Positions 1 to 29,838 are shown, counted from the first letter of the stretch. The stretch: 35,583 bases of DNA from an uncultured Persicitalea sp. (GCA_950075905.1 CATMVR010000002.1:1-35583), one strand, 5' to 3'. Numbers and translations are program-made. Notes: generated by a model from the sequence alone, not told the origin.

Positions 1-2250
1 GAAATCCACCGCTACGTCTGCTCCAACTCCGGCGACCCGCTGCTGGTCCCCAGCCCTAACTCGAAAGGCCCGATCATCGATCACTTCGACTCCACGGCCA
101 CCCGGATGCACTTCATGTACTTCATCAACCAGCTGAAACCTGTACTGGGAGACTTCCGCAAAACGGCCTTAAAGAACCTGTACCTGGCCAGCTTTGAAGC
201 AAAAAATGCCCTTTGGACACCTTCACTAGCCACGGAGTTTGAGAAATTGAACGGCTACGATGTGGCGAAATTCCTTCCCTATATCTTCAATAAAACTGCT
301 TTTGACCCCACGACCACCGACCGGTTCCGGCAGGATCTGAACAAGACCATCTCCGAACTGATGATCAACAATCACTACCGGAAAGGAAGAGAAATTGCAA
401 ACAGCTACGGACTGAACCTGATATCGGAGTCGGGCGGGCCGGGACCGCCGCTGCACAACGTACCCGTGGAGGCCATCAAAGCGCTGGGTTCGCTGGACGT
501 ACCCCGCGGAGAGTTCTGGATCAACCACGAACGGCTCGACGAAACCAAAGACAGCGTTGATTTGCTGATGCTGGTTAAGGAGATTGCGGCCGCTTCGCAC
601 CTCTACCAGCGTAAGATCACGGAACTGGAAGCCTTCACCAGCTTCCAGAACTGGCAGGAAGGTCCCGGCGACATGCGCCCCATCGGGGACCGGGCTTTCT
701 GCGAGGGTATGAGCCGGGCCGTCATTCACGGCTTTACCCATAATCCCACCAGGGAAGGTTTTCCGGGCAATGTGTACGCCGCCGGTACCCACTTCAACGT
801 CAAAACCACCTGGTGGCCTAAGGTAAAACCCTTCAACGACTACCTGGCGCGGGTATCGTACATCCTGCAGGAAAGTGACTTTGTCGCCGATGTACTCTAC
901 TACTACGGCAACCGGGTACCTAATTTCGGCACGCCCAAGAACAGCCGATTTGCCGTCGGCTCCGGGTATGACTACGAGATTATCAATACCGAAAAACTTC
1001 TGAACGACCTTACCGTCAAAGACGGGCTGCTCACCCTGCCGTACGGGGCGCAGTTTAAAGTACTGTCGCTGGACGAAATCGTGGGCAATGATCCGGCGGT
1101 ACTTAAGAAGCTGGAAGAACTAGCTAAGGCAGGAGCCATCATTACCGGTACCAAACCTACGGACGTGTGGGGAGCCAGCCAACCCGTTGCCGACCGGCTG
1201 TGGGGTGGATCGGGGGCATTTTCGCAGAATGATCTAAAAAAAGGAAAAGTGTTTACAACTCCGGTTTTGCAAATCCTGCAAAAGATGAACGTAAAGCCCG
1301 ACTTCGACTATCCCGACAAAGGCTCGCAGCGGCTGGACTACATGAAAAAGAGTCAGCCGGTACTTGACTTTATCCACCATAAAAAAGGCGATATGGATTT
1401 TTACTTCGTCCGCAACACCAGCGACAAGGCCCTATCCCGGCTCGTATCCTTCCGGCAGCCGGGCAAATCACCCGAGCTCTGGAACCCGGTAACGGGCGAA
1501 ATTATCCCGATCAGTGTCTACAATCCGGCGGGCGACAAGGTACAGGTACCTCTCTCCTTCGGCCCCCACGGCTCATACTTTGTGGTCTTCACCAAAGGGA
1601 GTACCACGCCCCGCTACCAGGCCGTCACCTCTGCCTCCGCGCACCCGCCGCTGTTTGCGTATACCCCGCAGGGATTGCAGTTTATGGAAAATGGTTCTTT
1701 TGAATTGAAGGGTACGTCAAATTCAAAAAAAGTAGCGAATTCCATCCAGACTCAGCCTATCAAAGGGGCGTGGGACGTGCAATTCACCAAGGGCTGGGGC
1801 GCCCCCGAAACCGCTACTTTCCCGGAGCTTATCTCCTGGACAAAATCTCCCGACAAAGGCATAGCGCACTACGCCGGCTCCGGCATGTACACCAAAACCT
1901 TTACCTACAACAAACCGGAGAATCAGTCGGGTCGGGTGTATCTGGATCTGGGGAAGGTGGGCAAAGTGGCCGAAGTATGGCTGAACGGGAAATCATTGGG
2001 CATTACCTGGGCCGCTCCCTACCGCTACGACGTGACGGACGTCATCAAACCCGGCGAGAACGCTTTGCGGGTAGAAGTGATCAATACGTGGGCAAACCGG
2101 ATCATCGGGGATATTAACGAAAAGGAAAACTATACCCGGACGAATCTGAAAGTACGGGGCTCGCGGGAATTGCTGTGGTCGGAAACGCCCCTGGTAGAGT
2201 CCGGCCTGATGGGCCCGGTGACGATTCAGCATGTGCAACCCGTTCACTAG
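1..2250 (+). CDS. GH106 alpha-L-rhamnosidase-like glycoside hydrolase (5' end outside window)
   Basis: The reading frame is open from base 1, and the codons before the ATG at 106 (…RYVCSNSG…GPIIDHFDSTAT) align with the inside of the next gene's product. The gene therefore starts upstream of the window and the track's ATG at 106 is internal. The visible part covers the later catalytic barrel and a C-terminal beta-sandwich of galactose-binding type (…VWLNGKSLGITWAAPYRYDV). GH106 enzymes release terminal alpha-L-rhamnose from pectin side chains or glycosides, usually in the periplasm or at the cell surface. The protein is a close paralogue of the downstream one along its whole visible length. 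One visible difference is SESGGPGPPLHN here against SEAGGPGHMHH in the neighbour. Family assignment is from recognised sequence style; the substrate is inferred. Confidence 0.8.
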   Translation, partial: EIHRYVCSNSGDPLLVPSPNSKGPIIDHFDSTATRMHFMYFINQLKPVLGDFRKTALKNLYLASFEAKNALWTPSLATEFEKLNGYDVAKFLPYIFNKTAFDPTTTDRFRQDLNKTISELMINNHYRKGREIANSYGLNLISESGGPGPPLHNVPVEAIKALGSLDVPRGEFWINHERLDETKDSVDLLMLVKEIAAASHLYQRKITELEAFTSFQNWQEGPGDMRPIGDRAFCEGMSRAVIHGFTHNPTREGFPGNVYAAGTHFNVKTTWWPKVKPFNDYLARVSYILQESDFVADVLYYYGNRVPNFGTPKNSRFAVGSGYDYEIINTEKLLNDLTVKDGLLTLPYGAQFKVLSLDEIVGNDPAVLKKLEELAKAGAIITGTKPTDVWGASQPVADRLWGGSGAFSQNDLKKGKVFTTPVLQILQKMNVKPDFDYPDKGSQRLDYMKKSQPVLDFIHHKKGDMDFYFVRNTSDKALSRLVSFRQPGKSPELWNPVTGEIIPISVYNPAGDKVQVPLSFGPHGSYFVVFTKGSTTPRYQAVTSASAHPPLFAYTPQGLQFMENGSFELKGTSNSKKVANSIQTQPIKGAWDVQFTKGWGAPETATFPELISWTKSPDKGIAHYAGSGMYTKTFTYNKPENQSGRVYLDLGKVGKVAEVWLNGKSLGITWAAPYRYDVTDVIKPGENALRVEVINTWANRIIGDINEKENYTRTNLKVRGSRELLWSETPLVESGLMGPVTIQHVQPVH

Positions 2251-2296
2251 TTTTGGTATGAAAAGTTTTATTGGTACTATTTCAAAAAAGGAATAT

Positions 2297-5242
2297 ATGG
2301 CCCGTTGGAAGGTACTCGGCCTGCTGGCCGTGCTGGGGGCTATGGTACTTTTCTCATTCAGCACCACCCAAAAAGCCGACGCTGACCTCACCGCCCTGAA
2401 AGCCGGATTTAAGAGTCCGCCGATCCTGGCGCGCCCGAAGGTATACTGGTGGTGGCTCAATGGCTACGTGGATAAGGTGCGGCTCAAAGAAGAGCTGCTG
2501 GCTATCAAAAACGCCGGGCTAGGTGGCGTGGATATTTTTGAAATAGGGTTGCCACCCGCCAGCGACCCCAACGGCATTATCCCGGCGGGACCGGCCTACA
2601 TGGGTGACGAGTCGCTGGATGTGATTGAGATGGCCATCAAGGAAGCCGGCAAGCTGGACCTGGAAGTGGGCCTGAACCTGGCCAGTAGCTGGAACGCGGG
2701 CGGAAGCTGGGTAAAGCCCAAGTACGCGGCTAAAACGCTCTACTTTTCCAAAACCCCGGTGAATGGTACTACCGCCGCAAACGTGAAGCTACCCTTCCCA
2801 ACCATTTCGCCCGACCGCAACGGCAACCCACGCCCTATCGAGTACGACGAAACCGGTCGGCCCGTGTACCGGGAAGAGGTAGCCGTAATCGCCGTGCCAG
2901 CCGGTGCTAAGAACCTGGCCGATACTTCCAGGATCATCAACCTCACCAGGTACTTTGATCCTACGTCCGAAATGCTTGCCTGGAAAGCGCCCGCCGGTAA
3001 TTGGGACGTATACCGCTACGTTTGTTCCAATTCGGGTGAACAGCTGATCCGGCCTACCCCCAACTCGCTGGGGCCGATCATCGATCATTTTGATTCGACG
3101 GCTACCGAAATGCACCTGATGTACTTCATTGATCGCCTGAAGCCCCGCCTCGGTGATTTCAGCAAGAGCGCGCTGAAGTACCTGTATCTCGCCAGCTACG
3201 AAGCCAAGGAATTTACCTGGACCTCCTCGCTGCCCGCTACCTTCCGGCAGTTGCACGGCTACGATATTTATAAGTTCATCCCCGCCATCTACAATCCTGA
3301 GCTGTTTGACGCGAAAACGCAAGAGAACTTCCAATACGATTTCACGAAGACCTTCTCGGAATTGATGATCAACAACCACTACCGGAAGTCGAAGGAAATA
3401 TGCAACAAGCACGGGCTTAAAATCACGTCCGAAGCGGGTGGCCCGGGGCACATGCACCATATTCCGGTCGAGACGCTGAAAGCGCTGGGCTCGCTGGACA
3501 TTCCCCGCGGCGAGTTTTGGTACAAACGCCCCTATTATGACAAAGACAGCGTGGATATGGTGTGGCTCGTGAAGGAAATCGCCGCCGCTTCGCACATCTA
3601 TAAGCGGGGTATGGTAGAAGAAGAAGCCTTCACCAGCTACTGGGACTGGCAGGAGGGCCCGGCTGACTTAAAGGTTTTTGCCGATCGGGCCTTTTGCGAA
3701 GGGCTGAACCGGCTGGTGATCCACGGTTTTACCCATAATCCAACGAGCTTCGGGTACCCCGGCATCGCCTACTTTGCCGGGACCCACTACAACGACCGCC
3801 GCGCCTGGTGGCCCAAGATCAGGCCCTTTAACGAGTACCTGAGCCGGGTGTCGTACCTACTTCAAAATACCGATTTTGTGGCGGATGTCCTGTACTACTA
3901 CGGCGACAAGGTACCCAACCTGGTACCACCCAAAAATACGCGGTTCAGCGTCGGGCCGGGCTATGACTACGAGATGATCAACACCGAAATTCTCATAAAA
4001 AACCTGACCGTCGACAAGGGCGAGCTGGTACTTCCCGGCGTGGGTCGGTACAAGGTACTTACGGTGGGGAATGAATCAGAAATGCACCCGGAGGCGCTGG
4101 CGAAGCTTAGGGTACTGGCCCAACAGGGTGCTATTATCGTCGGGCAGAAGCCCGTGCGGGCAGCAGGTCTGAGCCACCAGCCCCAGGCTACTTCGGCGGT
4201 AGCCAGCCTGGCCAACACCTTATGGACAACAAAGGCTTTTTCGGCCAGTAACCGGGAAAAAGGAAAAATATACGCCAACACCGAACCCGCGCAGGTACTG
4301 GCGGCCTTACAGGTCGCCCCTGATTTCAGCTACCCCGATCAGCAGGCCGGTACCCTGGACTATATTCACTACGCCAAAAACGGCAACGATTTTTATCTGA
4401 TTCGCAATACCACCGATCAGTGGGTGTCGCGGAACGTCAGCTTCCGGCAGACCAACAAAGCTCCCCAGCTCTGGGACCCCGTTACGGGGGATATCGCTCC
4501 GGTTTCTATCTATGAACAGAGCGGCCCTCATACCGCTATGCCCCTGACCCTTCCGCCCTACGGCTCCTACTTTGTAGCGTTCACTAACGAGAAGCCCGGC
4601 GCCCGCTACCAGCCGGTCGCCAGCGCCGGGGGTAATCCGCTCAGGGTACACTACACCGCCAACGGTTTTTATTCACTGGATAACAAACCTATGGAGGTAA
4701 AAAAAGGCTCCGCCTCGCAGCGGGTAAAAGCGCTAACGCCCGTTACGACGCTGACGGGTGCGTGGAACCTTACCTTTCCCAAAAACTGGGGTGCTCCCGA
4801 AAAGGCTACCTTCCCCAAGCTGATCTCCTGGACGGAAGCCCCCGAAAAAGGGATCAGGTACTTTTCGGGTATAGCGGCCTATGATAAATCTTTTGAACTT
4901 AGTCCGCCGGCAAAGGGTGAACGCATTTATCTGGATCTGGGCAACATAGCCGAAGTAGCCGAGGTATGGGTGAATGGCAAGCCAATGGGAATTACCTGGT
5001 CAAAGCCGCACCGTTTTGACATCACCGACGCCGTCAAGGCAGGTACTAATCAGCTGAAAGTGGAGGTAGCCAACACCTGGTCCAACCGCATGACGGGTGA
5101 TGCGCTCACGGGCGAAAAATTTACCAATACCAACATTGTGAAAGCCAACAAAAACCTGACGCCCTGGGGGGAGGTACCTCTTAAAAAGTCGGGGCTACTG
5201 GGGCCGGTCACCCTATTAACCGTCAAACCTACTAAACCATGA
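2297..5242 (+). CDS. GH106 alpha-L-rhamnosidase-like glycoside hydrolase, exported
   Basis: The track ORF opens at 2231, inside the previous gene. I prefer the ATG at 2297: it has an AGGAA-like ribosome site just upstream and begins a good signal peptide (MARWKVLGLLAVLGAMVLFSF). ATG 2258 is the alternative. The mature protein starts with RPKVYWWWLNG, typical of the first strand of the GH106 barrel, and ends with a beta-sandwich (VWVNGKPMGITW). At about 981 residues it has the family's usual size. The predicted role is hydrolysis of terminal alpha-L-rhamnosyl residues after export. It lies directly behind its paralogue and overlaps the next gene by 4 bp (ATGA), so the three are one operon. Confidence 0.82.
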   Translation: MARWKVLGLLAVLGAMVLFSFSTTQKADADLTALKAGFKSPPILARPKVYWWWLNGYVDKVRLKEELLAIKNAGLGGVDIFEIGLPPASDPNGIIPAGPAYMGDESLDVIEMAIKEAGKLDLEVGLNLASSWNAGGSWVKPKYAAKTLYFSKTPVNGTTAANVKLPFPTISPDRNGNPRPIEYDETGRPVYREEVAVIAVPAGAKNLADTSRIINLTRYFDPTSEMLAWKAPAGNWDVYRYVCSNSGEQLIRPTPNSLGPIIDHFDSTATEMHLMYFIDRLKPRLGDFSKSALKYLYLASYEAKEFTWTSSLPATFRQLHGYDIYKFIPAIYNPELFDAKTQENFQYDFTKTFSELMINNHYRKSKEICNKHGLKITSEAGGPGHMHHIPVETLKALGSLDIPRGEFWYKRPYYDKDSVDMVWLVKEIAAASHIYKRGMVEEEAFTSYWDWQEGPADLKVFADRAFCEGLNRLVIHGFTHNPTSFGYPGIAYFAGTHYNDRRAWWPKIRPFNEYLSRVSYLLQNTDFVADVLYYYGDKVPNLVPPKNTRFSVGPGYDYEMINTEILIKNLTVDKGELVLPGVGRYKVLTVGNESEMHPEALAKLRVLAQQGAIIVGQKPVRAAGLSHQPQATSAVASLANTLWTTKAFSASNREKGKIYANTEPAQVLAALQVAPDFSYPDQQAGTLDYIHYAKNGNDFYLIRNTTDQWVSRNVSFRQTNKAPQLWDPVTGDIAPVSIYEQSGPHTAMPLTLPPYGSYFVAFTNEKPGARYQPVASAGGNPLRVHYTANGFYSLDNKPMEVKKGSASQRVKALTPVTTLTGAWNLTFPKNWGAPEKATFPKLISWTEAPEKGIRYFSGIAAYDKSFELSPPAKGERIYLDLGNIAEVAEVWVNGKPMGITWSKPHRFDITDAVKAGTNQLKVEVANTWSNRMTGDALTGEKFTNTNIVKANKNLTPWGEVPLKKSGLLGPVTLLTVKPTKP

Positions 5243-5958
5243 AATACGCTGGCTGGATACTAAGTACCCTATTCCTTTTTTCATTTCCCTTCGTTGGACA
5301 GTCGCAGGTGGCCGACCAAAAGGAGTACCTGGCCGAAGTAAAGAAAGAGCTAAACGCCGTCTGGCCCAAAAACCGGACGGTCAATATCGTCTTCCACGGG
5401 CACTCGGTGCCGGCTGGTTTCTGGCATAACCACGAAGTACATACGCTGGAATCGTACCCGCACCTGGTCCTGAAGAAGCTCAAAGAACAGTACCCCTACG
5501 CCGTAATCAACGTAATCATAACGGCCATCGGGGGCGAGAACTCGCAGAAAGGCAGTGCGCGGCTGGAAAAGGAAGTACTGGTACACCGGCCCGATGTACT
5601 GCTGATCGATTACGCCCTGAATGATCGGTTTATGGGACTGGAAAAATCAAAAGAAGCCTGGGGAGACATGATCAAAAAAGCGTTGGCCCAAAACATCAAA
5701 GTGATTCTGGTAACGCCCTCGCCCGACCAGCGGGTGGATTTGCTGGCGGCGGACAATCCGCTGGAACCGCATACCGAGCAGATTCGGCAACTGGCGGAGA
5801 AGTACCATATCGGGCTGGCGGATCCCTACGGTGAGTTTAAGAAAATAGCTACCGATGGAGAGCTGAAAGAGTACATGTCACACGTGAACCACCCCAATTT
5901 GGCGGGCCATCAGATCATAGCGAACACTATTGCAGAGTGGCTAACTGAGAAGAAATAA
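5239..5958 (+). CDS. Secreted SGNH/GDSL-family hydrolase (probable carbohydrate esterase)
   Basis: The product has 239 residues with a signal peptide (MKYAGWILSTLFLFSFPFVGQSQ). SGNH blocks are visible: the nucleophile Ser56 in FHGHSVPAG, Gly98 in AIGGENS, Asn128 in YALND and His218 in HVNHPN. Two positions are unusual. The classic GDS is GHS, and the usual Asp three residues before the catalytic His is His215, so the triad Asp is missing or supplied from elsewhere. In this context the likely job is removal of acetyl or other ester groups from a rhamnose-containing glycan so the GH106 enzymes can act. It is translationally coupled to the GH106 gene by a 4-bp overlap, and its stop lies only 6 bp from the convergent GntR gene. 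Confidence 0.75.
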   Translation: MKYAGWILSTLFLFSFPFVGQSQVADQKEYLAEVKKELNAVWPKNRTVNIVFHGHSVPAGFWHNHEVHTLESYPHLVLKKLKEQYPYAVINVIITAIGGENSQKGSARLEKEVLVHRPDVLLIDYALNDRFMGLEKSKEAWGDMIKKALAQNIKVILVTPSPDQRVDLLAADNPLEPHTEQIRQLAEKYHIGLADPYGEFKKIATDGELKEYMSHVNHPNLAGHQIIANTIAEWLTEKK

Positions 5959-5964
5959 GGGTAC

Positions 5965-6729
5965 CTAGCTTTCCGAAAGCCCATGATCGTTGTAGTCGGG
6001 GTTGGCAATGATGGCAAACTTGTACTTGTCGCCCCGGTAGTACGACCGTTCGATTTCGACTACCTTGCTTTCTGTGCATACGACCGCACTATCCAGAATG
6101 AACATTGCTGTTGCCCTGGGCAGTTCGAAGTTGTTGTCCGGGGAGTCCGGCTGGACGATGTCCGTACTTAATGTCTGCTTCACCTCCTCAATTTTAAGGT
6201 GGTAGCTTTTTTCGTACACTTTGAAGTAGGAAATTTCGGTAGGCAGCCGGTTGATGTTAGGGCATAGCGTAAGGGAGATATATTTCAGTTCGTCCTTGAT
6301 GATCTCCTCGTCGGCGTACCGCAGCTGGTGGATTTTCAGCACGGGCCCCTCAATGATAAAATGCCTCCCCCCGATTTCGGACGAAATCCCGTCCTGGAGG
6401 ATGGTTTTTTCCAGCACCAGGTTTCTGGGCTGAAACCCCTCGGCAATCAGGCTCTCGTGAAACCCCCGCCGAGTGGCATATATGGATCCGAGGGTCCGGA
6501 CCAGGTGATGGTCGGGGGTCCGGTTCAAGACATAGGTACCCTTGCCCTTGATCCTTTTGGCCCAACCCTTAGACTCAAGGTCCAACAGGCTCTTGCGAGC
6601 TGTAGTATTACTAACCCGGAAGTCGCGAATCAGCTCGTTTTCGGACGGTATCTGGTCACCCGGCTGCAGTTCACCGGATTTGATTTGCTCGACAATCGTC
6701 TCGCTTATGGAGATAAACTTGGGCTTCAT
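5965..6729 (-). CDS. GntR-family (HutC/UTRA type) transcriptional regulator
   Basis: The product has 254 residues. Residues 9-70 form a GntR winged helix (QIKSGELQPGDQIPSENELI, then FRVSNTTARKSLLDLESKGW and GKGTYV). The rest matches a UTRA ligand-binding domain, which in this family binds sugars, sugar phosphates or related effectors. It is convergent with the rhamnosidase operon and divergent from the SDR operon. Palindromes rich in TATACAT/ATGTATA lie about 100 bp upstream of its start and overlap a candidate -7 element on its own strand, which suggests autorepression. Which neighbouring operon it controls, and its ligand, cannot be told from sequence. Confidence 0.85.
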   Translation of the reverse strand: MKPKFISISETIVEQIKSGELQPGDQIPSENELIRDFRVSNTTARKSLLDLESKGWAKRIKGKGTYVLNRTPDHHLVRTLGSIYATRRGFHESLIAEGFQPRNLVLEKTILQDGISSEIGGRHFIIEGPVLKIHQLRYADEEIIKDELKYISLTLCPNINRLPTEISYFKVYEKSYHLKIEEVKQTLSTDIVQPDSPDNNFELPRATAMFILDSAVVCTESKVVEIERSYYRGDKYKFAIIANPDYNDHGLSES

Positions 6730-7167: not shown

Positions 7168-7234
7168 TGGCTAAAATACTTTAAGTTTTGGCTAAATATG
7201 GCGAATCTCCTCGAATCCATGGTCCCTACCTTTG
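7168..7234 (+). promoter_or_regulatory. SDR operon promoter with AraC-type direct repeats
   Basis: TGGCTAA occurs at 7168 and again at 7189, 21 bp apart (two helical turns). The candidate -7 element TACCTTTG is at 7227-7234, 38 bp after the second repeat. No good -33 TTTG is present, which fits activator dependence. The 28-bp repeat block matches the one before susC at 24 of 28 positions, with identical spacing to the -7 element. Confidence 0.7.
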
Positions 7235-7270
7235 TCAGGCAGATTAACCTGTATTATTTTAATATAGAAT

Positions 7271-8068
7271 ATGTCTTTACAATTATTCAGCCTGGCTGGC
7301 CGGACCGCGCTCATCACCGGGGCGAGCCAGGGTATCGGGCTGGCGCTGAGCCGGGGGCTGGGACTTGCCGGTGCACGGGTGGTCCTGAATGCCCGGCAGC
7401 CTGACAAACTTCAGGAGGCCGTTCAAAAGCTGCTTAGCGAGGGAATCGACGCACATGGGTATCCGTTTGATGTAACGAGCGAAGCCGGTGTCCAGCAGGC
7501 CGTAGAAAGGGTGGAAACCACGCTAGGGCCTATTGACATCCTGGTCAACAATGCGGGAATCATCCGCCGTCATCCGGCCGAAACCCTGGCGCTTCCGGAC
7601 TGGAATGCGGTCATACTGACAAACCTGACCGCTCCATTCATAATGGCCCAGGCCGTGGGAAAGCGGATGATCGGCCGACAAAGTGGTAAGATCATCAATA
7701 TCTGCTCGCTCATGAGTGAGCTGGGGCGTGATTCGGTGGCGGCCTATTCAGCCGCCAAAGGGGGCCTGAAGATGCTGACGAGGAATTTGGCCTCCGAGTG
7801 GGCCGAACACAACATACAGGTCAACGGCCTGGGCCCGGGTTACATTGCCACGCCCATCAACACCGACTACCGCGCGCCCGGCAACCCCTTGAACGACTAC
7901 ATCCTGAGCCGTACGCCGGCCGGCCGCTGGGGAACCCCCGACGATTTAGTCGGAACGGCGGTTTTTCTGGCCTCCGCAGCTTCGGATTTTGTCAATGGAC
8001 AATTGATCTATGTCGATGGCGGGTTGGTTACGACCTTCGGAAAACCATTTGATGCTACAAAAGGATGA
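7271..8068 (+). CDS. SDR-family oxidoreductase, gluconate 5-dehydrogenase / KduD-like
   Basis: The product has 265 residues, the classical SDR size. The NAD(P)-binding motif TGASQGIG is at residues 16-23, NNAG at 93-96, and the catalytic pair Y159xxxK163 is in YSAAKGG with Ser146 upstream. The sequence style (GIIRRHPAETL, NGLGPGYIATPINTDYR) is that of gluconate 5-dehydrogenase or 2-deoxy-D-gluconate 3-dehydrogenase. It would interconvert a sugar acid and its keto form in the cytoplasm. It is the first gene of an operon with a sugar-acid transporter, an epimerase and RpiB. The exact substrate is not determined. Confidence 0.85.
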   Translation: MSLQLFSLAGRTALITGASQGIGLALSRGLGLAGARVVLNARQPDKLQEAVQKLLSEGIDAHGYPFDVTSEAGVQQAVERVETTLGPIDILVNNAGIIRRHPAETLALPDWNAVILTNLTAPFIMAQAVGKRMIGRQSGKIINICSLMSELGRDSVAAYSAAKGGLKMLTRNLASEWAEHNIQVNGLGPGYIATPINTDYRAPGNPLNDYILSRTPAGRWGTPDDLVGTAVFLASAASDFVNGQLIYVDGGLVTTFGKPFDATKG

Positions 8069-9341
8069 TCTTGTCTTGAAGCCCTCGAACAACTACCGCT
8101 GGTGGATTGCCGCCCTCATTGGACTCGCCACGGCGATCAATTACCTTGATCGGCAGAACCTGCCCATTGCCATTGGCGAAATCAGGAAAACTATTGAAAT
8201 CAGCGATTTCGACTACGGACTCATCAACAGTCTGTTCCTCTTTGCCTACGGTACCATGTATGCGATTGGTGGGCGAATCATCGATATTCTTGGCTCCAAA
8301 ATGGGCTATGCCGTGATGATTGTGTGGTGGTCGGTAGCCAATATCCTGCATGGGCTCATTTCCAGTGTAACCGGACTAGGCATAGCCCGGTTTCTGCTCG
8401 GACTCGATGAGGGCGGAGGTTTTCCGGGTTCAGCCAAGGTGGTCTCGGAATGGTTTCCCCGCAAGGAACGCTCCATGGCTTTTGGCATTTTCAATACCGG
8501 TTCAAGCCTGGGGGCGGTACTTGCCCCACCGTTACTTGCCGTGATTATTTCGCTGGCCAACTGGCGCTGGACGTTCATCTTTTCGGGCTTGCTGGGCCTG
8601 GGGTGGGTGCTCCTGTGGTTCAATATGTACAGCCTACCATCCAAAAGCCGATTTTCGTCGGTGGCCGAAAAAGCCTACATCGCCAGCGGACAAGCGTCAG
8701 AAGTGGGCGCAAGGCCCAAAACTCCCTGGCTCGGCCTTTTCAGGAATCGAGACGTGTGGACGGTCATTCTGGTCAAGTTCTTCCCGGATTCGGCCTGGTA
8801 CTTCTACATTTTTTGGCTTCCCAAATACCTCAATGACGTGCGTGGACTGGACATAAAGGGCATTGGGCTTTACGCCTGGATACCCTATGCTTTTGCGGGA
8901 GTGGGCAGCTTGCTGGGGGGCTGGCTGAGTAGCTTCCTGCTGCGGAAGCACGTTTCTCTGGCCGTTGCCCGTAAAATCCCGCTGGGGCTGGCGGCGGCCC
9001 TTTTGCCCACTTCGCTGCTTATCACGAGTGTATCGCTTCCCCTGGCCATCGTGTTTTTCAGTATGGCCATGCTGGGGCACCAGCTGTACTCGACCATCGC
9101 CCAGACCCTGGTGACCGATTTGTTCCCATCCCCCGTGGTGGGCTCGGTCACCGGATTGATGGGATGCATGGTGACCTACGGGGCCATGTTGTTCAGTGTA
9201 TTGATCGGGTATGTCATCGGTGAGTTTGGGTATGGACCGGCTTTCCTGATTTCGGGCATGCTGCATCCACTGGGCTTTATCCTGGCACTCGTGTTGCTCA
9301 AAAAGGACAGGTTTGTTCGAAATGATCTAGCTATAATTTAA
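8052..9341 (+). CDS. MFS transporter, ACS family (hexuronate / sugar-acid:H+ symporter-like)
   Basis: The likely start is ATG 8052 (MLQKDDLVLKPSNNYRWWIAALIG), overlapping the SDR end by 17 bp; the track's 8010 start would lie deep in the SDR gene. The product has about 429 residues with many hydrophobic segments, consistent with 12 membrane helices. NYLDRQNLPIA in the first helix and LLGLDEGGGFPGSAKVVSEWF are typical of ACS-family carriers such as ExuT. The predicted role is uptake of a hexuronate, aldonate or similar anion across the inner membrane, feeding the SDR, epimerase and isomerase encoded beside it. Confidence 0.85.
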   Translation: MLQKDDLVLKPSNNYRWWIAALIGLATAINYLDRQNLPIAIGEIRKTIEISDFDYGLINSLFLFAYGTMYAIGGRIIDILGSKMGYAVMIVWWSVANILHGLISSVTGLGIARFLLGLDEGGGFPGSAKVVSEWFPRKERSMAFGIFNTGSSLGAVLAPPLLAVIISLANWRWTFIFSGLLGLGWVLLWFNMYSLPSKSRFSSVAEKAYIASGQASEVGARPKTPWLGLFRNRDVWTVILVKFFPDSAWYFYIFWLPKYLNDVRGLDIKGIGLYAWIPYAFAGVGSLLGGWLSSFLLRKHVSLAVARKIPLGLAAALLPTSLLITSVSLPLAIVFFSMAMLGHQLYSTIAQTLVTDLFPSPVVGSVTGLMGCMVTYGAMLFSVLIGYVIGEFGYGPAFLISGMLHPLGFILALVLLKKDRFVRNDLAII

Positions 9342-9352
9342 TCCCGAATGGA

Positions 9353-10225
9353 ATGAAACTATCAATTGCCATTGCCGACACCCATGCGCTGCCTTCCGCA
9401 TTTGTGGTATACCGCGGATTCGACTTGTGTATTCCCAAGGCCGCCTGTTTGGGCTTCAGCGGCGTGGAACTGGCCCTGAAGCGGGCCGATGAAATACATC
9501 CCGTGCGCATGCAAACCCTGCTGGACGAACATCGTATGGAAGTATCCTGTATTTCCACGGGACAGGTGTACGCCGACGACGGGCTGATGTTCACCGACCC
9601 CAAGGCCGATAAACGGCAACAGGTGCGCGCCGTCTTCAGGGAGCTCATCGACCTGGCGGAGAATTTCGGCGGACTGGTCAATATCGGGCGGGTGCGTGGG
9701 CAAATCGGGGACTCGCCCCGGGCCGAAGCAGAAAACCTCTTCATCGAACTGGCTCAAGAATTATGTGACTACGCCGCCCCGCGGCGGGTGACGCTGATTC
9801 TTGAACCCGTCAACCGCTACGAGATTGATTTTGTGAACAGCGTGGAAGAGGGCGTGGAGCTAATGCGGAAAGTGGATCGGCCCAACATGATGCTCATGCC
9901 CGACGTGTTTCACATGAACATCGAGGATCGTTCGCTCGGACCCGAACTGGCCCGGCACATCGCCTATGTCAAGTACATTCACCTGGCAGACTCCAACCGT
10001 CTGGCGCCCGGACAGGGGCATCTCGACTTTCCGGCCATCTTTGAGGCGCTGCTGGGGGCGGGGTACGACGGCTGGGTATCGGCCGAAATACTGCCGGTTC
10101 CGGACCCCGACCTGGCGGCCCGCCGGACCGCCGAGTACCTGCTGCCGATGATTGCCACCTACAACCAGAACACCAGCGAAAAACGGGTGTCCGGTGCCCT
10201 GAGCAAAACCGTGGGATACCGCTAG
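9353..10225 (+). CDS. Sugar isomerase/epimerase TIM barrel (D-tagatose/L-ribulose 3-epimerase-like)
   Basis: The product has 290 residues with the xylose-isomerase-like TIM barrel fold. The four metal ligands of the tagatose 3-epimerase group are all visible: Glu151 (LILEPVNRYE), Asp184 (MPDVFHMN), His210 (YIHLADSNR) and Glu245 (SAEILP). This spacing matches the E152/D185/H211/E246 set known for D-tagatose 3-epimerase. The group epimerises or isomerises ketoses or sugar phosphates with a divalent metal. It begins 11 bp after the transporter and precedes rpiB, in keeping with a ketose catabolic route. Hydroxypyruvate isomerase or an IolI-like function are alternatives. Confidence 0.78.
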   Translation: MKLSIAIADTHALPSAFVVYRGFDLCIPKAACLGFSGVELALKRADEIHPVRMQTLLDEHRMEVSCISTGQVYADDGLMFTDPKADKRQQVRAVFRELIDLAENFGGLVNIGRVRGQIGDSPRAEAENLFIELAQELCDYAAPRRVTLILEPVNRYEIDFVNSVEEGVELMRKVDRPNMMLMPDVFHMNIEDRSLGPELARHIAYVKYIHLADSNRLAPGQGHLDFPAIFEALLGAGYDGWVSAEILPVPDPDLAARRTAEYLLPMIATYNQNTSEKRVSGALSKTVGYR

Positions 10226-10259
10226 TGGTACCCGCTAACCCTAAACCATTTTTCAAACC

Positions 10260-10769
10260 ATGGAAAAAGCAAAAATATACCTCGGCTGTGACCACGGGGG
10301 CTACGTTCTGAAAACCCAGCTTGTTGACTTTCTCACCGGGCAGGGCTATGCGGTGGAGGATTTCGGTTGCCATTCCGAAGACATTGTGCGCTACCCCCAC
10401 TACGCCGCGCGGGTGGCGAAGGCGGTGCGGAGCCAACCCGGCGCGCGCGGGATCCTGCTGTGCTCCACGGGCATCGGCATGAGCATCATCGCTAACAAGT
10501 ACCGGGGGATCAGGGCCGCCCTGTGCTCCACGAGCTACCAGGCCCGCATGACCGCCTCCCACAACAACTCCAATGTCCTGTGCCTGGGCGGTCGCTGTAT
10601 CGGGATTTTTGAGGCACAGGATATGCTGCATGCCTGGCTTACCACCCCCTACGAAGGCGGACGCCATGACATTTCCCTGGGGCTGATTGAGTCGGCGGAG
10701 AACGTAAATTTTTCGGGAAAGGATTGGGAGGGGGAGGAAAACGACAAAAATAGTCCTGGCCTGGTTTGA
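10260..10769 (+). CDS. rpiB: RpiB/LacAB-family sugar-phosphate isomerase
   Basis: The product has 169 residues, a little longer than typical RpiB (about 150), with an extra polar tail. Active-site signatures are present: CDHGG (Asp11-His12), the enediol-base Cys68 in LLCSTGIGMS and His101 in SHNNSNVLCLGGR. RpiB interconverts ribose 5-phosphate and ribulose 5-phosphate; relatives act on allose, galactose or other sugar phosphates. Given its place beside an epimerase and a sugar-acid dehydrogenase, it may be a pathway-specific isomerase and not the housekeeping enzyme. It is the last gene of the operon, 34 bp after the epimerase. Confidence 0.83.
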   Translation: MEKAKIYLGCDHGGYVLKTQLVDFLTGQGYAVEDFGCHSEDIVRYPHYAARVAKAVRSQPGARGILLCSTGIGMSIIANKYRGIRAALCSTSYQARMTASHNNSNVLCLGGRCIGIFEAQDMLHAWLTTPYEGGRHDISLGLIESAENVNFSGKDWEGEENDKNSPGLV

Positions 10770-10835
10770 CCTCGGGCGTGAAAAATGTGCGCTCTGCCGT
10801 ATTTTAACATCACTTAGAGGATTTGCCCCAGCTTC

Positions 10836-10902
10836 TGGCTAAAATAGTTTAATTAATGGCTAATTCACTTCAATTTGCTCATACTATCGAAAGGTACCTT
10901 TG
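10836..10902 (+). promoter_or_regulatory. susC operon promoter with AraC-type direct repeats
   Basis: TGGCTAA is at 10836 and 10857, 21 bp apart. TTTG at 10874-10877 and TACCTTTG at 10895-10902, with a 17-bp spacer, form a good Bacteroidota -33/-7 promoter. The second repeat starts 38 bp before the -7 element, exactly as at 7168-7234. This promoter also shows that the track's ATG at 10900 cannot be the susC start. Confidence 0.75.
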
Positions 10903-11013: not shown

Positions 11014-14000
11014 ATGAAAAAATACCTGGTAACGAAAAACAGCGTGCTGCTGTGGTCACTCCTGCTGGCATCGCTCCTGGTGCTGCAGGTACCTCCGGCT
11101 TGGGCCGAAAAACGGCCCGTCTCCCTAAATTTGTCTCCGTGGGCAGTGCAGGTTTCAGGTCGGGTGATCGACGAAGACGGCAATGGGATTCCGGGAGTAA
11201 GCGTAACGGAGCGCGGCACCGCCAACGGCACCATCACGAACCCCAGTGGAGAATTCAGCCTCTCGGTGACCAGCGAGGCAAGCGTGGTCGTGTTCAGTTT
11301 TCTTGGGTATGTTTCCCAGGAAAGGGTGGTGGGCAGCAGCTCCCGCCTCGAAATCAGCCTGCAGCCGGATGTCAAGGCACTCTCAGAGGTGGTGGTGGTG
11401 GGGTATGGTACCCAGCGCAAGAGTGATGTGACGGGGGCTATATCCAAAATATCGGCCGAAAAGGTAAAAGCCGTGCCGGTAGTCTCCACCGAGCAGGTGC
11501 TGCAGGGGCAGGCGGCCGGTGTCGACGTGGTGGCGGCGGGCAATGCCCCCGGCTCGGGCATGACCGTGCGGGTGCGCGGCCAGCGGTCGATTCAGGCAGG
11601 CAACGATCCCCTCTACGTGGTGGACGGCATTCCGTTCGATGGCGGCTTGAACCAGATCAGCCCCAATGACATTCAGTCCATCGAGGTGTTGAAAGACGCC
11701 TCATCCGCCGCGATCTATGGGTCAAGGGCAGCCAACGGCGTGGTTTTGATCACCACCAAGCGGGGCAGCGCCGGCAGGACCACCGTCAGCATTGATTCCT
11801 ACTACGGGGTGCAGAATATCCTGAATCAGGTGAATGTGCTGGACGCCGAAGATTTTGTGAATTTTCGAAAAACGGCCCAGAACCGCACCGATCTGAATAC
11901 GATTCTGGCGCCAGAGGAAATCGCCAACTATCAGAATGGCCAGTCAGTGAACTGGCAGGACCTGCTGCTGGCAAAGAATGCCCCGCAGCAGAATCATCAG
12001 GTCAGTGTTTCGGGGGGAAGTGAAAAAACCAGGTTCCTTGTTTCGTTCAACTACCTGCAGCAGAAGGGGATCATTGCACCCTCCGACTTCACGAGGGGCT
12101 CGCTTCGCATCAATCTTGACCATGAGATCAACCGGCGGATCAAGGTGGGGGTGTCCTCACTGCTGACCCGGAACCTTACCAACCGGGTGGATGTGGGTAA
12201 TGCCCTCATCGCTGCCTCACAGATAAGCCCCCTGGGCGACGTCCGCGACGAGCAGGGCAACCTGCTGCTGTATCCCACCCAGAGCGAGCAACTGGTGGTG
12301 AATCCCCTGACCGATATTGCCAACAACATCAACAAGACCTGGGAAAACCGCATCTTCGCTAGTCTGTACGCCGAGTTTATGCTGGGCAAGGGGTTTACCT
12401 ATCGCTTCAATTTTGGCCCCGATTTGTCGTTCGACAACAACGGCGTGTACATCGGTTCGGAGACAAACGCCAAGAAGGGGGCTCTGGACGAAGGGCAGAG
12501 CAACCGGTCTGACTCGTACTCTTACACACTCGAGAACATCCTGCGCTACACCAAAACCCTGGGTGAGTCGCATAAGCTGGATGTGACGCTCGTGCACAGT
12601 ATCCAGAACCGGAAGTACACGTATACCCGTGTCAGTGCGCAGGGTTTTCCCACCAACCAGGTGGAGTGGAACAAGCTGTCTAGTGGTACCATCAAGGGCT
12701 TCGATACGGGCTTTGAGGACTGGAAGCTGCTTTCCTACATGGCCCGGGCCAACTACGGCTTCCGCGACAAGTACCTCTTCACGCTTGCCGCGCGTCTGGA
12801 TGGCTCCTCCCGCTTCGGCGATCGGAACAAGTTCGGATTTTTTCCCTCGGCGGCCTTTGCCTGGCGCGTCATCGAGGAAAACTGGATGCCCTCCGCCTCC
12901 TGGCTTTCGGACCTGAAGCTGCGGGTCAGCTACGGCACTGTGGGCAACACCGCCATCTCGCCCTACCAAACCATCGGCTCGCTCACCCGCTCGTCCTACC
13001 TGTTCGGGTCTAACCCGGCGCAGGGTTTCGGGCCAGGTACCCTGCCAAGCCCCGACCTGAAATGGGAAACAACCCGGCAGTTTAACGTGGGACTGGACTT
13101 CGGGTTGATCAATAACCGGATCTCGGGCGCTCTGGAGTACTACCGCACCAGCACCGACGACCTGCTCCTGAGCCAGTCGCTGCCCCCGACCTCGGGGTAC
13201 GCCACCATCATCTCCAACATCGGCGCCACCCGCAACCAGGGCCTGGAGCTGACGCTCCAAACGGTGAACCTGGATGTGCCCTCGGGCTTTAAGTGGACAA
13301 GTGACCTCAACTTCTCGGCCAACCGCAACGAGATCGTCCGGCTGCTGGGCGATAACAAGAACGACATCGGCAACCGCTGGTTTATCGGGCAGCCCATTCA
13401 GGTGTACTACGACAACCGCTACCTGGGCATCTGGCAGCAGGAGCAGGCTGATGAAGCCAAAGGCTATGGCCGCACGGTGGGGCAAATCCGGGTGGAAGAC
13501 CTCAACGAGGACGGCCGCATCAACGCCGACGATCGCTCGATCCTGGGGTCGCCGTTCCCGAAGTGGACGGGCGGCATGACCAACACATTCAGCTACAAGG
13601 GGTGGAATTTTTCGTTCTTTGTCTACACCCGCCAGAACTTCCTGATCAACAGTGCCATTTATGCCGGCAACCTGGGCGAGCTCAACTCCCGTTTCAATAT
13701 CCCGCAGTTTATCGACTACTGGACACCCGAAAATACCGGTGCCCGCTACCCCAAGCCCCTGCCGATCGGCACCAACAACCCCGACCTCAACACCCTGGGC
13801 TACGTAGATGGCTCGTATGTGCGGGTCAGGACGGTTACGCTTTCCCATGATTTTGGCAAAGTACTGGTCAACAAACTGGGCATGCAGTCGCTGCGGGTGT
13901 ACGCCACGCTCAACAACCCCCTGAATTTCACAAATTTCAAGGGGTGGGATACCGAGGCGGGCTCCTCTGTCAACTCCTACCCGTCCACCAAACTGGCTCT

Positions 14001-14025
14001 GCTGGGTGTGAACATTACATTCTAA
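11014..14025 (+). CDS. susC: SusC/RagA-family TonB-linked outer-membrane transporter
   Basis: I chose ATG 11014 (MKKYLVTKNSVLLWSLLLASL…PPAWA, a signal peptide); the track start at 10900 lies on the -7 element. The product has about 1003 residues. A carboxypeptidase-regulatory-like domain follows the signal (VSGRVIDEDGNGIPGVSV … FLGYVSQE). The SusC hallmark SEVVVVGYGTQRKSDVTGAI comes next, then the plug (VRGQRSIQAGNDPLYVVDG) and a long beta-barrel ending in an aromatic residue (GVNITF). It forms the outer-membrane pore of a SusCD importer for an oligosaccharide or glycoconjugate, driven by TonB. It is followed 21 bp later by susD. Confidence 0.95.
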   Translation: MKKYLVTKNSVLLWSLLLASLLVLQVPPAWAEKRPVSLNLSPWAVQVSGRVIDEDGNGIPGVSVTERGTANGTITNPSGEFSLSVTSEASVVVFSFLGYVSQERVVGSSSRLEISLQPDVKALSEVVVVGYGTQRKSDVTGAISKISAEKVKAVPVVSTEQVLQGQAAGVDVVAAGNAPGSGMTVRVRGQRSIQAGNDPLYVVDGIPFDGGLNQISPNDIQSIEVLKDASSAAIYGSRAANGVVLITTKRGSAGRTTVSIDSYYGVQNILNQVNVLDAEDFVNFRKTAQNRTDLNTILAPEEIANYQNGQSVNWQDLLLAKNAPQQNHQVSVSGGSEKTRFLVSFNYLQQKGIIAPSDFTRGSLRINLDHEINRRIKVGVSSLLTRNLTNRVDVGNALIAASQISPLGDVRDEQGNLLLYPTQSEQLVVNPLTDIANNINKTWENRIFASLYAEFMLGKGFTYRFNFGPDLSFDNNGVYIGSETNAKKGALDEGQSNRSDSYSYTLENILRYTKTLGESHKLDVTLVHSIQNRKYTYTRVSAQGFPTNQVEWNKLSSGTIKGFDTGFEDWKLLSYMARANYGFRDKYLFTLAARLDGSSRFGDRNKFGFFPSAAFAWRVIEENWMPSASWLSDLKLRVSYGTVGNTAISPYQTIGSLTRSSYLFGSNPAQGFGPGTLPSPDLKWETTRQFNVGLDFGLINNRISGALEYYRTSTDDLLLSQSLPPTSGYATIISNIGATRNQGLELTLQTVNLDVPSGFKWTSDLNFSANRNEIVRLLGDNKNDIGNRWFIGQPIQVYYDNRYLGIWQQEQADEAKGYGRTVGQIRVEDLNEDGRINADDRSILGSPFPKWTGGMTNTFSYKGWNFSFFVYTRQNFLINSAIYAGNLGELNSRFNIPQFIDYWTPENTGARYPKPLPIGTNNPDLNTLGYVDGSYVRVRTVTLSHDFGKVLVNKLGMQSLRVYATLNNPLNFTNFKGWDTEAGSSVNSYPSTKLALLGVNITF

Positions 14026-14046: not shown

Positions 14047-15573
14047 ATGAAAACATATCTCAAGAAATGCCTAGTTCTGGCGGCCCTGGGTGCGGCGTCA
14101 CTTTCGTGCACCGAATCGTTTTTGGAGGAAAACCCGGTGTCGGTGCTTAATCCGGTGAGCTTTTACACTAACGAGGCCGGACTCACCCAGGGGGTGAACG
14201 CCCTGTACGCCAGCCTGCGGCCCATGTATGGTGAAAATCAAGGACCTCTCTTTTTAGCTTTAATGGGCACAGACGAGTTTCTTACTGGTAAGAATGTGGC
14301 CGGGGCACATATCGTGAAGTACGACGCCACGTTCAACTCCAGCATGGGGGAAGCGTCTTTTGTGTGGCGGAACCTGTACCAAACCATCAACACGGCCAAT
14401 ACGGTGCTTGCAAGCGAAGACAGGGTTTCCATGAATCTGGCGGCCAAGAACAGGCTGCTGGCCGAAGCCCGCTTCATTCGTGCGCACGCTTACTTCTACC
14501 TCGTCCAGTATTTCGGAGACATCAGTCTGCTCACCGAGCCGACCATCGGCCTGCAGACCGACTACCGCCGAAACACCAAAGAGGAGGTGTACGAGCAGAT
14601 TCTGGAAGATCTGACGTTTGCCGAAGCCAACCTGCCCGCTACCACTACTGATTTTGGGCGGGCTACCAAAGGGGTGGCGCAGCATCAGCTGGCAAAGGTG
14701 CACCTGGTACTGAAAAACTGGACCACCGCGGCCGATTATGCCAAACGGGTCATCGACTCGGGTCTGTATCGCCTGCAGGAGGACTATGTGGAAATATTTG
14801 ACGTGGACAATCAGATGAATTCAGAAATCATCTGGTCCATTCAGTACGAAAACGATCTGCTGAACTCCGGAGCGGGCAATCAGTCCCACACCTGGTTTAC
14901 CAATTCGTACAGCGACGTGCAGGGCATGCAGCGTACCCTGGAATGGGGGCGGCCGTTTACCCGGTTTTCGCCCACCACCTACCTCATGGAGCTGTTCGAC
15001 AAGGATAAGGATCAGCGCTGGCACGTCTGGCGGCGGTTCGACGATTATTCCTATAATAATCCCGCCTCTCTGCCGGCGGGCAAAAAGCTCGGCGATCCGG
15101 TGGATGAAAGCTGGCGGGGAAAAATGGAATTCCACTGGGCGCTCAAGAAATTTCAGGACCCCTCGCGGCTGTCACCCAACGAAACCCGCGGTAACAAGGA
15201 CTTCCTGGTGTTCCGCCTGGGGGAGACCTACCTGCTGGCCGCCGAGGCCCTGCTCATGGCCGGCAAACCCGACGAGGCCGTGGAGTACTTTAACGCGATC
15301 AGGCGTCGGGCCGCCAAACCCGGAGTTGATTTTCTGATCAACCCTTCCGAACTTACCCTCGATTTGATTCTGGACGAGCGCTCCCGTGAGCTCGCCGGGG
15401 AGGTGAGCCGCCGGGCCGACCTGGTCCGGACGGGCAAACTGCTCGAGCGTGTCCGGAAATACGGAAACCCGGCTGTGCTCACCAATCTGAAAGAACACCA
15501 CGTGCTGCTGCCCATTCCCCAGAACCAAATTGATCTGACCACCTCGGTCTACCCGCAAAACCAGGGATACTGA
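14047..15573 (+). CDS. susD: SusD/RagB-family nutrient-binding outer-membrane lipoprotein
   Basis: The product has 508 residues with a lipoprotein signal; the lipobox ASLSC places the lipidated Cys near residue 21. The N-terminal region (FLEENPVSVLNPVSFYTNEAGLTQ), the helical repeat part (AEARFIRAHAYFYLVQYFGD) and the C-terminal block (ETYLLAAEALLMAGKPDEAVEYFNAIRRRA … LDERSRELAGE) are all classic SusD. It forms the surface lid on SusC and captures the glycan substrate. It lies directly after susC and 12 bp before the nucleoside-hydrolase-like gene. Confidence 0.95.
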   Translation: MKTYLKKCLVLAALGAASLSCTESFLEENPVSVLNPVSFYTNEAGLTQGVNALYASLRPMYGENQGPLFLALMGTDEFLTGKNVAGAHIVKYDATFNSSMGEASFVWRNLYQTINTANTVLASEDRVSMNLAAKNRLLAEARFIRAHAYFYLVQYFGDISLLTEPTIGLQTDYRRNTKEEVYEQILEDLTFAEANLPATTTDFGRATKGVAQHQLAKVHLVLKNWTTAADYAKRVIDSGLYRLQEDYVEIFDVDNQMNSEIIWSIQYENDLLNSGAGNQSHTWFTNSYSDVQGMQRTLEWGRPFTRFSPTTYLMELFDKDKDQRWHVWRRFDDYSYNNPASLPAGKKLGDPVDESWRGKMEFHWALKKFQDPSRLSPNETRGNKDFLVFRLGETYLLAAEALLMAGKPDEAVEYFNAIRRRAAKPGVDFLINPSELTLDLILDERSRELAGEVSRRADLVRTGKLLERVRKYGNPAVLTNLKEHHVLLPIPQNQIDLTTSVYPQNQGY

Positions 15574-15585
15574 TCCCCGCATCTC

Positions 15586-16575
15586 ATGAAAAAACTAGTA
15601 GTGCTTTTCCTCTGCATGGTACCTTGGCTCAGTCTTGCCCAGCGTCCGGTGAAAATTATTTTTGATACGGACATGGACTCCGACGTGGATGACGTTGGTG
15701 CCCTGTCCATGCTGCACAGCCTGGCCTCCTCGGGCGAAGCCGACATCCTGGCCGTGATGGTGTCGAGCCTGAATCCCTGGTCGGCTCCGACCGTGGACGT
15801 GCTCAACACCTACTTTGGCCGGCCCGACATTCCGATCGGCAACGTCAAGCGGTTTGGCGTTTACCATCCGTCAAGGTACGCCCGGATGCTCGCCGAGGAG
15901 TTTCCGCAGCGGGTGGGCTCCGGCGAGAAAGCCACGGAAGCTACCGTACTGTACCGGCAGATTCTTGCCCGGCAGCCCGACAACAGCGTGGTGATTGTTA
16001 CCGTGGGCGACCTGACCAACGTGTCGCGGCTGCTCGCGAGCGCGCCTGACACGATCAGTGCGCTGGGCGGAGAAGCGCTTGTGGCAAAAAAAGTAAAGCA
16101 CCTGGTGGCCATGGGCGGGCGGTACCCGGTCGAAACCGACGCCCGGCCCAATGGCAACTTCAAGCCAGATCCCGCCTCGAGCCGGCACGTGGCGAACCAC
16201 TGGCCCACCAAAATCATTTTTACCGGTGGAGGCGTTTTTGCCAATGCAATTCCGACTGGCAAAATCTACTTTGAACCCAGCCAGGCGAAAACCCCCATGC
16301 GCCGGGCCTACGAGACGTTCCTGGTGGGCTGGAACCGCAACTACCACCACAGTGCCGACATGATAGCGGTGTACGTGGCGGTGCGCGGGCCGGAGCCGTT
16401 TTTCAAGCTGCAGGAACAGGGAATGAACCATATCTTTGAGAATGGAACCACGGTATGGCGTAATGAGCCCGACGACCGGCGGCACGCGTTGGTCAATGAG
16501 TTTGCCGAAGGGGTGGACCCGCTGGTAGTGGCGAAGAAATTTGACGAGCTGCTTATCAAAAAGGCGGGGAAATAA
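15586..16575 (+). CDS. Exported nucleoside-hydrolase-like protein
   Basis: The product has 329 residues with a signal peptide (MKKLVVLFLCMVPWLSLAQ). DTDMDSDVDD at residues 27-36 corresponds to the calcium-binding aspartate cluster (DTDxxxDDD type) of the inosine-uridine nucleoside hydrolase fold; GDLTNVSRLL and HLVAMGG also fit. Family members cleave N-ribosidic bonds, releasing ribose and a base. Export and placement after SusCD suggest the imported substrate is hydrolysed in the periplasm, possibly to ribose or another sugar handled by the RpiB and epimerase operon. The substrate may not be a nucleoside, since many SusCD-linked relatives are uncharacterised. Confidence 0.8.
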   Translation: MKKLVVLFLCMVPWLSLAQRPVKIIFDTDMDSDVDDVGALSMLHSLASSGEADILAVMVSSLNPWSAPTVDVLNTYFGRPDIPIGNVKRFGVYHPSRYARMLAEEFPQRVGSGEKATEATVLYRQILARQPDNSVVIVTVGDLTNVSRLLASAPDTISALGGEALVAKKVKHLVAMGGRYPVETDARPNGNFKPDPASSRHVANHWPTKIIFTGGGVFANAIPTGKIYFEPSQAKTPMRRAYETFLVGWNRNYHHSADMIAVYVAVRGPEPFFKLQEQGMNHIFENGTTVWRNEPDDRRHALVNEFAEGVDPLVVAKKFDELLIKKAGK

Positions 16576-27654: not shown

Positions 27655-27683
27655 AGGGATTGGGTTTTTAAATAAAAAAAAGG

Positions 27684-28283
27684 TCAGTTGGTGGTTTCAA
27701 AAAGATCTTCGTCCTCTTGCTCGGCCCGGGCGGTCTTCCAATAGTCACGAGCCCACTGGCGTTTGGTGTGGTCGCCCTCCCAATGCAGCAGGTCCGTCAA
27801 AATCCGACCGTAGTCCACCGGGATGCGGGCTTCGGCGGCAGCTATTCGTTGAATGAAGCCCCGCAGCGGCACGGCGATGTCCTCGCGGTCGCTATCAAGC
27901 AAGGCGACGAATCGCTTATCCAGGCTATCTTGCCCCGCCCCAAGCTGGGTGCGCAGCCGTCGCAGCGACTCGCCGAACGACCGGGGTTGGTAGCTTGTGC
28001 TGTCGTCATCCTCACTAAATCCGGGTACTTTGTACCCGCCATCTGGGGTGGTGAACCGCTGGGCGTGGATGGCGTAGAGCGTCCCCACCAGGCGGTAGGC
28101 GTCGAAGGGCCAGCCGCTGGTTTCGGGCAGAAGCCCGCCCAGTATCCAGATGGAACGGGTGTCGCGCAGCGGGTCGGCGGCGGCGCGGCGGAGTTCGGCC
28201 AGTTTGGCGCGGCCCTCCGCATCGCGCTGCTTTTGCAGAAATCGCACCAGGTTGTTGATCGAGGCTTTGTCGTAAGGATTCAT
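27684..28283 (-). CDS. cse2: Cse2 (CasB) Cascade small subunit
   Basis: The start is at ATG 28283 (MNPYDKASINNLVRFLQKQR), overlapping the cse1 stop as ATGA. The product has 199 residues, is helical and charged, and contains GGLLPETSGWPFDAYRLVGTLYAIH and SFGESLRRLRTQL; it ends with the acidic tail EQEDEDLFETTN. Cse2 dimers stabilise the R-loop and non-target strand in Cascade. Confidence 0.93.
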   Translation of the reverse strand: MNPYDKASINNLVRFLQKQRDAEGRAKLAELRRAAADPLRDTRSIWILGGLLPETSGWPFDAYRLVGTLYAIHAQRFTTPDGGYKVPGFSEDDDSTSYQPRSFGESLRRLRTQLGAGQDSLDKRFVALLDSDREDIAVPLRGFIQRIAAAEARIPVDYGRILTDLLHWEGDHTKRQWARDYWKTARAEQEDEDLFETTN

Positions 28284-29836: not shown

Positions 29837-29838
29837 GA

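Follow-up and report, generated by a model that had tools for sequence, protein, structure and literature searches.

Two operons in a 35,583-nucleotide stretch of DNA from an uncultured Persicitalea sp. (hereafter, the window) carry nearly the same pair of direct repeats at their promoters. Which protein reads these repeats, which bases does it recognise, and what would binding do to the two operons? The first-pass annotation had proposed that an AraC-type regulator, encoded at the end of the second operon, reads both pairs and thereby controls a small uptake-plus-catabolism regulon with likely positive feedback. The genes concerned are:

5965-6729, minus strand: GntR/UTRA regulator, divergent from operon 1, without a homologue in related loci
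7271-8068, plus strand: SDR dehydrogenase, gluconate 5-dehydrogenase/KduD-like, just under the NCBIfam cut-off
8010-9341, plus strand: MFS transporter of galactonate/hexuronate type, below the NCBIfam cut-off; translation probably starts inside the frame
9353-10225, plus strand: xylose-isomerase-like TIM barrel; the nearest NCBIfam model is 5-keto-L-gluconate epimerase IolO, below cut-off
10260-10769, plus strand: RpiB/LacAB-type isomerase, which closes operon 1
11014-14025, plus strand: SusC-type TonB-dependent receptor, ATG at 11014, ORF open from 10900
14047-15573, plus strand: SusD-type lipoprotein
15586-16575, plus strand: nucleoside-hydrolase-like protein (IU_nuc_hydro)
16594-17466, plus strand: AraC/XylS-family regulator with a cupin-like N-domain and two HTHs, the proposed reader of both operators

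As annotated, the AraC gene ends the susC operon (operon 2), whose order is susC-susD-nucleoside hydrolase-araC with intergenic gaps of 21, 12, and 18 nt. Its 290-residue product contains cupin-like and HTH domains only. The C-terminal domain matches HTH_18 (E = 3.6e-21, residues 208-284) and has the two HTHs typical of the AraC/XylS family, with recognition helices at about residues 211-226 (HTH1) and 258-272 (HTH2). The N-domain is cupin-like, matching AraC_binding (E = 2.1e-6) and also Cupin_2 (E = 7.9e-5, under its curated cut-off).

The rest of the window includes two adjoining GH106 alpha-L-rhamnosidase genes and a GDSL esterase (106-5958), without an AraC operator in front. Downstream of the regulon lie type I-E-like CRISPR-Cas genes (Cas5, CT1975/Cas7, and Cse2; 25625-28439, minus strand), neighboured by minus-strand ORFs at 28280-32646. 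The protein encoded at 20600-21598 matches Ntox23 (bacterial toxin 23) below threshold and adjoins one without a Pfam family.

A shared 42-bp element at two promoters

A search of the 35.6-kb window for exact TGGCTAA-N{10,18}-TGGCTAA returned only the two annotated pairs, at 7168-7195 and 10836-10863 on the plus strand, both with an N14 gap and a 21-bp period; dinucleotide shuffles of the window gave a chance expectation of 0.02. The two 28-mers are identical at 24 of 28 positions. At both promoters, the second repeat and TACCTTTG are 38 bp apart from start to start (a 31-bp gap), as the first-pass annotation had stated. When 3 mismatches were allowed in the bare 14 bases, the window yielded 3 matches versus 2.8 expected, which is not significant. 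Thus, the strength of the signal lies in the exact, extended element.

The similarity extends past the second TGGCTAA, most clearly at 10836-10877, where two 19-nt copies follow each other at a 21-bp step. Counting this second unit, the whole element spans 42 bp and consists of two tandem 21-bp units, TKGCTAA-n4-STTTAA-n4. Box A (TKGCTAA) is followed in each unit, one helical turn on, by box B. Unit 1 has STTTAA as its box B; in unit 2, box B reads CTTCAA at the susC site (operator 2) and is a degenerate GGCGAA in operator 1. The elements of the two promoters are:

7168-7209, plus strand: operator 1, two 21-bp units, TGGCTAAAATACTTTAAGTTT and TGGCTAAATATGGCGAATCTC; box A TGGCTAA, box B CTTTAA
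7227-7234, plus strand: -7 box TACCTTTG of the SDR operon, preceded by no clear -33 TTG
10836-10877, plus strand: operator 2, TGGCTAAAATAGTTTAATTAA and TGGCTAATTCACTTCAATTTG; both box A and both box B copies recognisable
10895-10902, plus strand: -7 box TACCTTTG of the susC operon; a possible -33 element, TTTG 17 nt upstream, overlaps the operator end

TAnnTTTG is the -7 box consensus of the main sigma factor (sigma-A) in Bacteroidota (PMC9723704). The distance from the end of unit 2 to TAnnTTTG is 17 nt at both window promoters and 16-17 nt in relatives, and a clear -33 TTG was absent from the expected place in most promoters examined. The elements have the features of AraC/XylS operators: a pair of direct half-sites at a spacing of about 21 bp, both containing box A and box B, and a downstream half-site that adjoins or overlaps the position of the upstream promoter element.

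Activator-dependent promoters of the AraC/XylS family usually have tandem direct repeats that end at -33, together with a weak -33 element, and this is the layout found here. The same sites could nonetheless serve repression, with AraC blocking RNA polymerase when its ligand is missing and leaving the DNA on induction: the downstream half-site extends to the -33 region, and E. coli AraC represses araBAD by looping when arabinose is absent (PMC4760080). As the sites cover neither the -7 box nor the start, and as their layout is that of activator sites, we regard repression as improbable and favour activation.

Occurrence of the element in the genome and in relatives

We searched the source assembly (5.38 Mb in 819 contigs, 82% complete, so that an extra site may lie in the missing sequence). 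With 2 mismatches allowed, the bare motif gave 43 matches, versus 53 for a reversed-pattern control; the bare motif is thus uninformative alone, and the extended 42-bp model is needed. Two of the 43 loose matches, TTGCTAAAATAGTTTAAATATTAGCTAA and TTGCTAAATGAGTTTAGGACTTCGCTAA, were conspicuous. Both lie on contig C16, in a paralogous locus whose AraC is 82% identical to that of the window. One site of the pair precedes SDR, TIM barrel, and RpiB genes, and the other precedes ADP-ribosylglycohydrolase-like, SusC, SusD, and AraC genes. The 42-bp model found these four sites in the assembly and nothing else of like strength. A held-out model, made from sites outside the window only, recovered the window sites with E = 5.5e-7 and 6.5e-6, and its best match outside the two loci had E = 0.43. 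A weaker operator-like tandem (GGGCTAAAATAGTGCAATCGG TTGCTAA) was seen at positions 963-990 of L011 (G000, contig C691), just past a distant AraC-type gene.

The C16 AraC has an HTH2 helix identical to that of the window AraC and a nearly identical HTH1 helix, making cross-talk between the two loci likely and allowing more than one assignment of sites to regulators; the regulon proper probably comprises four operators and the two regulators that read them. It is possible, though doubtful, that the window operators are read mainly by the C16 protein, or by both proteins interchangeably in a four-operator, two-regulator network. The shared helices fit this arrangement, as does the finding that the four sites have one common consensus and are the only strong ones in the genome. 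However, relatives with a single copy of the locus (below) suggest that one regulator suffices for both operons, and each pair of operators adjoins its own araC, an arrangement still compatible with cross-talk. We retain the linked AraC as the principal candidate.

Among the 222 genomes of the family, orthologues of the window AraC occur only in the source genome (two copies) and in two relatives, G003 (91% identical) and G032 (70%). In both relatives, the locus is single-copy, and the SDR and susC-type operons are both kept, with an operator at each promoter. Thus, loss of the motif from relatives that keep both operons and the regulator was not seen. The conserved islands in the promoter alignments are the operator and the -7 box. 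Between the window and G003, unit 1 of the SDR promoter is identical at 20 of 21 positions and the upstream flank at 26 of 58; at the susC promoter, the units agree at 17 of 21 (unit 1) and 19 of 21 positions, and the upstream flank at 29 of 63. The -7 box is identical at all 8 of 8 positions.

A further copy of the SDR promoter was found in L066 (contig C187 of G032, about 1380-1560, minus strand), with a slightly decayed operator (E = 0.059) that precedes an apparently short or interrupted dehydrogenase-like frame.

Scanning GTDB genomes added named relatives, in which the AraC is 63% (Catalimonadaceae bacterium JC749), 59% (Parapedobacter koreensis), and 58% (P. indicus) identical. In Catalimonadaceae and Parapedobacter, the catabolic and SusCD genes form one run behind araC, with a single element between araC and the first gene of the run. 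Since one gene run carries one site and two operons carry two, operators and operons match in number. This single element is strong in Catalimonadaceae (L052) and degenerate in Parapedobacter (L048/L049), where the site keeps its position, 38 bp from TACCTT, but has diverged in box A and the second repeat and does not stand out in the genome-wide model search.

The SusCD partner also varies. It is ADP-ribosylglycohydrolase-like in L009 (13388-14917), L045 (13249-14838), and L048 (15830-17362) and nucleoside-hydrolase-like in the window (15586-16575), and P. koreensis has both hydrolase families. It is as if two families with related chemistry swap for each other at SusCD loci.

Two other readings of the repeats bear on these comparisons. 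The 24 of 28 identity between the sites could reflect a recent duplication of promoter DNA with no regulatory role, but the two promoters have different sequences from operator to -7 box, and other genera conserve the sites separately, leaving this reading with hardly any credit. The shared element could also be read by the GntR/UTRA regulator, which adjoins operon 1 and is divergent from it. GntR operators are typically palindromic, whereas the window element is a direct repeat, and no compact palindrome was found in either promoter region. Moreover, no GntR homologue occurs in any related locus that keeps the element. We consider this reading very unlikely, and the absence of GntR from all related loci led us to discard it as the shared regulator.

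Pairing of recognition helices with operator boxes

We compared about thirty divergent AraC paralogues, mostly 33-41% identical, from the relatives and the source genome. In the relatives' paralogues, G..AAAAT was followed by G..AA at a lag of 21 in 10 of 26 upstream regions, compared with 0-4 regions at other lags from 10 to 35. For covariation, one operator was taken for each of 40 regulators by a selection rule blind to box B, and protein segments were compared with operator boxes in a partial Mantel test that controlled for N-domain distance. The test linked HTH1 to box A (r = 0.22, p = 0.001-0.002) and HTH2 to box B (r = 0.29, p <= 0.001). Both correlations are modest in size, and the 40 proteins are related by descent, an effect that the N-domain control offsets only in part. 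In the same test, the cross-terms were not significant (HTH1-box B, p = 0.2; HTH2-box A, p = 0.4), and the spacer correlated with neither HTH. The covariation persisted when all window orthologues were left out. With a sliding segment of 15 residues, the signal for box A was highest at residues 209-223 and that for box B at 257-271, which are the recognition helices. MarA inserts both of its HTHs, into the A- and B-boxes (PMC8279559), and the pairing of HTH1 with box A and HTH2 with box B is what this binding mode predicts.

Individual cases follow the same pairing. The HTH2 sequence GFNNFTHFN is paired with TTTAA in the window group, and the pairing recurs for a Mucilaginibacter protein whose overall identity is just 36%; in Parapedobacter both HTH2 and TTTAA are kept, with a changed HTH1 and the box A GTCAA. 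For L051 (Chitinophagia, same HTH2), the automatic rule mis-registered the site, and box B read by eye is GTTCAA. A search for FNNFTHFN in 395 genomes of the class returned only two already known proteins and thus no new test cases for the HTH2 code.

These data also bear on a hybrid two-component system (HTCS) with an AraC-type output domain, encoded elsewhere in the genome, as the reader of the sites. In Bacteroides, HTCS operators are direct repeats with an average spacing of 21 bp (PMC3878776). However, the locus showed no HTCS gene, conservation tracks the linked one-component AraC, and it is the HTH residues of this AraC that covary with the operator, so that an HTCS is a very improbable reader. 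The first-pass proposal of an AraC-type operator, a linked regulator, and a small two-operon regulon draws support from the retention of both sites in G003 and G032, the second copy on C16, the lack of further strong sites in the genome, and the covariation.

More generally, we lean towards the view that in Bacteroidota the one-component AraC regulators linked to SusCD have a common operator grammar: a pair of 21-bp units, nGnnAAAATA-(box B), is placed upstream of the -7 box by a fixed distance (38 bp here), with box A set by HTH1 and box B by HTH2. If true, this recognition code could be used to predict regulons from protein sequence, examples being GFNNFTHFN-TTTAA, GFNTLSNFN-AGTCA, and GFNNLSHFN-GTATCA. 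The literature searched held no such grammar or HTH-to-box code for these regulators.

A proposed mechanism and its relation to known systems

A model that we hold with considerable confidence, from sequence comparison, is that the AraC at 16594-17466 acts as a class II activator of AraC/XylS type, controlling an uptake-plus-catabolism regulon through both predicted operators. Two AraC subunits would occupy the two same-strand 21-bp half-sites on one face of the helix, separated by two turns; the N-terminal HTH of each subunit would read box A (TKGCTAA) and the C-terminal HTH box B (STTTAA). Because the downstream half-site ends at the -33 location, 17 nt before TAnnTTTG, the bound and presumably ligand-activated dimer would most likely recruit RNA polymerase in class II fashion to promoters that mostly lack a good -33 element. 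Operon 1 (SDR-MFS-TIM barrel-RpiB), for inner-membrane uptake and catabolism, and operon 2 (SusC-SusD-nucleoside-hydrolase-like-AraC), for outer-membrane uptake, would then be switched on together. We infer ligand-dependent activation of both operons from the araI1-araI2-like layout and from the lack of a clear -33 TTG at most promoters.

Since the short gaps in operon 2 put araC on the susC transcript, positive feedback is plausible at the window locus, judging by gene order, and would operate in the source genome. The gene order behind this part of the first-pass proposal is present in the window and in G003, where araC also ends the susC operon, as it probably does in the C16 paralogue. It did not extend to other relatives: araC precedes the operator in Parapedobacter and Catalimonadaceae and is not part of the driven operon, and in G032 about 700 nt separate susD from araC. 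Thus, the autoregulatory gene order is not general, being absent in Parapedobacter, Catalimonadaceae, and perhaps G032.

The catabolic gene types of operon 1 point to sugar acids, so the inducer is perhaps an aldonate or a uronate-like sugar acid. In P. koreensis, an altronate dehydratase-type gene adjoins the locus. We also considered a ribose or nucleoside substrate, as suggested by the nucleoside-hydrolase-like and ADP-ribosylglycohydrolase-like genes, and set it aside because the catabolic genes favour sugar acids and the annotated genes included no ribokinase.

The araI1-araI2 half-sites of E. coli have a 21-bp period. The window operators resemble them in having half-sites of the same orientation, with the same period, that end beside the upstream promoter element, and AraC at the downstream site araI2 recruits RNA polymerase (PMC4760080). 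The window regulator is also built like the E. coli AraC/MarA/XylS-type activators, with a cupin-like sensor, a two-HTH domain, and an A-box and B-box for HTH1 and HTH2 (PMC8279559, PMC4760080). It differs from E. coli AraC in that its promoters are of the Bacteroidota -33/-7 type, it targets one operon for SusCD uptake and one for sugar-acid-like catabolism, and the window locus gives no evidence of a looping site.

Among Bacteroidota systems, HTCS with AraC output likewise use direct repeats at SusCD operons, with a 21-bp average (PMC3878776), but the window AraC is a one-component protein without periplasmic sensor, kinase, or receiver domains. SusR operators are direct repeats 67 or 77 bp apart (PMC3878776), unlike the 21-bp period here. 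In the L-glucose/L-galactose pathway of Luteolibacter LG18, L-gluconate is converted to 5-keto-L-gluconate and then to D-tagaturonate (PMC12632266). Its L-gluconate dehydrogenase and IolO-like 5-keto-L-gluconate 4-epimerase form a step pair analogous to that of operon 1 (PMC12632266), although the LG18 pathway lacks SusCD; the likeness is a lead to the inducer only, as the window assignments fall below family cut-offs and the dehydrogenase family match is open to doubt. RhaR (BT3768) of Bacteroides thetaiotaomicron is likewise an AraC-family regulator of monosaccharide use (PMC3878776), likened here by description, with another regulon and pathway.

Measured against these systems, the window regulon is well supported but conventional, as its AraC layout is classical and 21-bp HTCS repeats have already been described (PMC3878776). 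The literature searched held no description of this operator or this gene set, and a pair of repeats has become a specific proposed regulon in terms of which protein, which two operons, and which bases. Environmental Bacteroidota very commonly have one-component AraC genes beside SusCD operons, and the operators of these regulators are hardly described in that literature; the 21-bp tandem, with the covariation of box A with HTH1 and box B with HTH2, offers a route to predicting the targets of each regulator.
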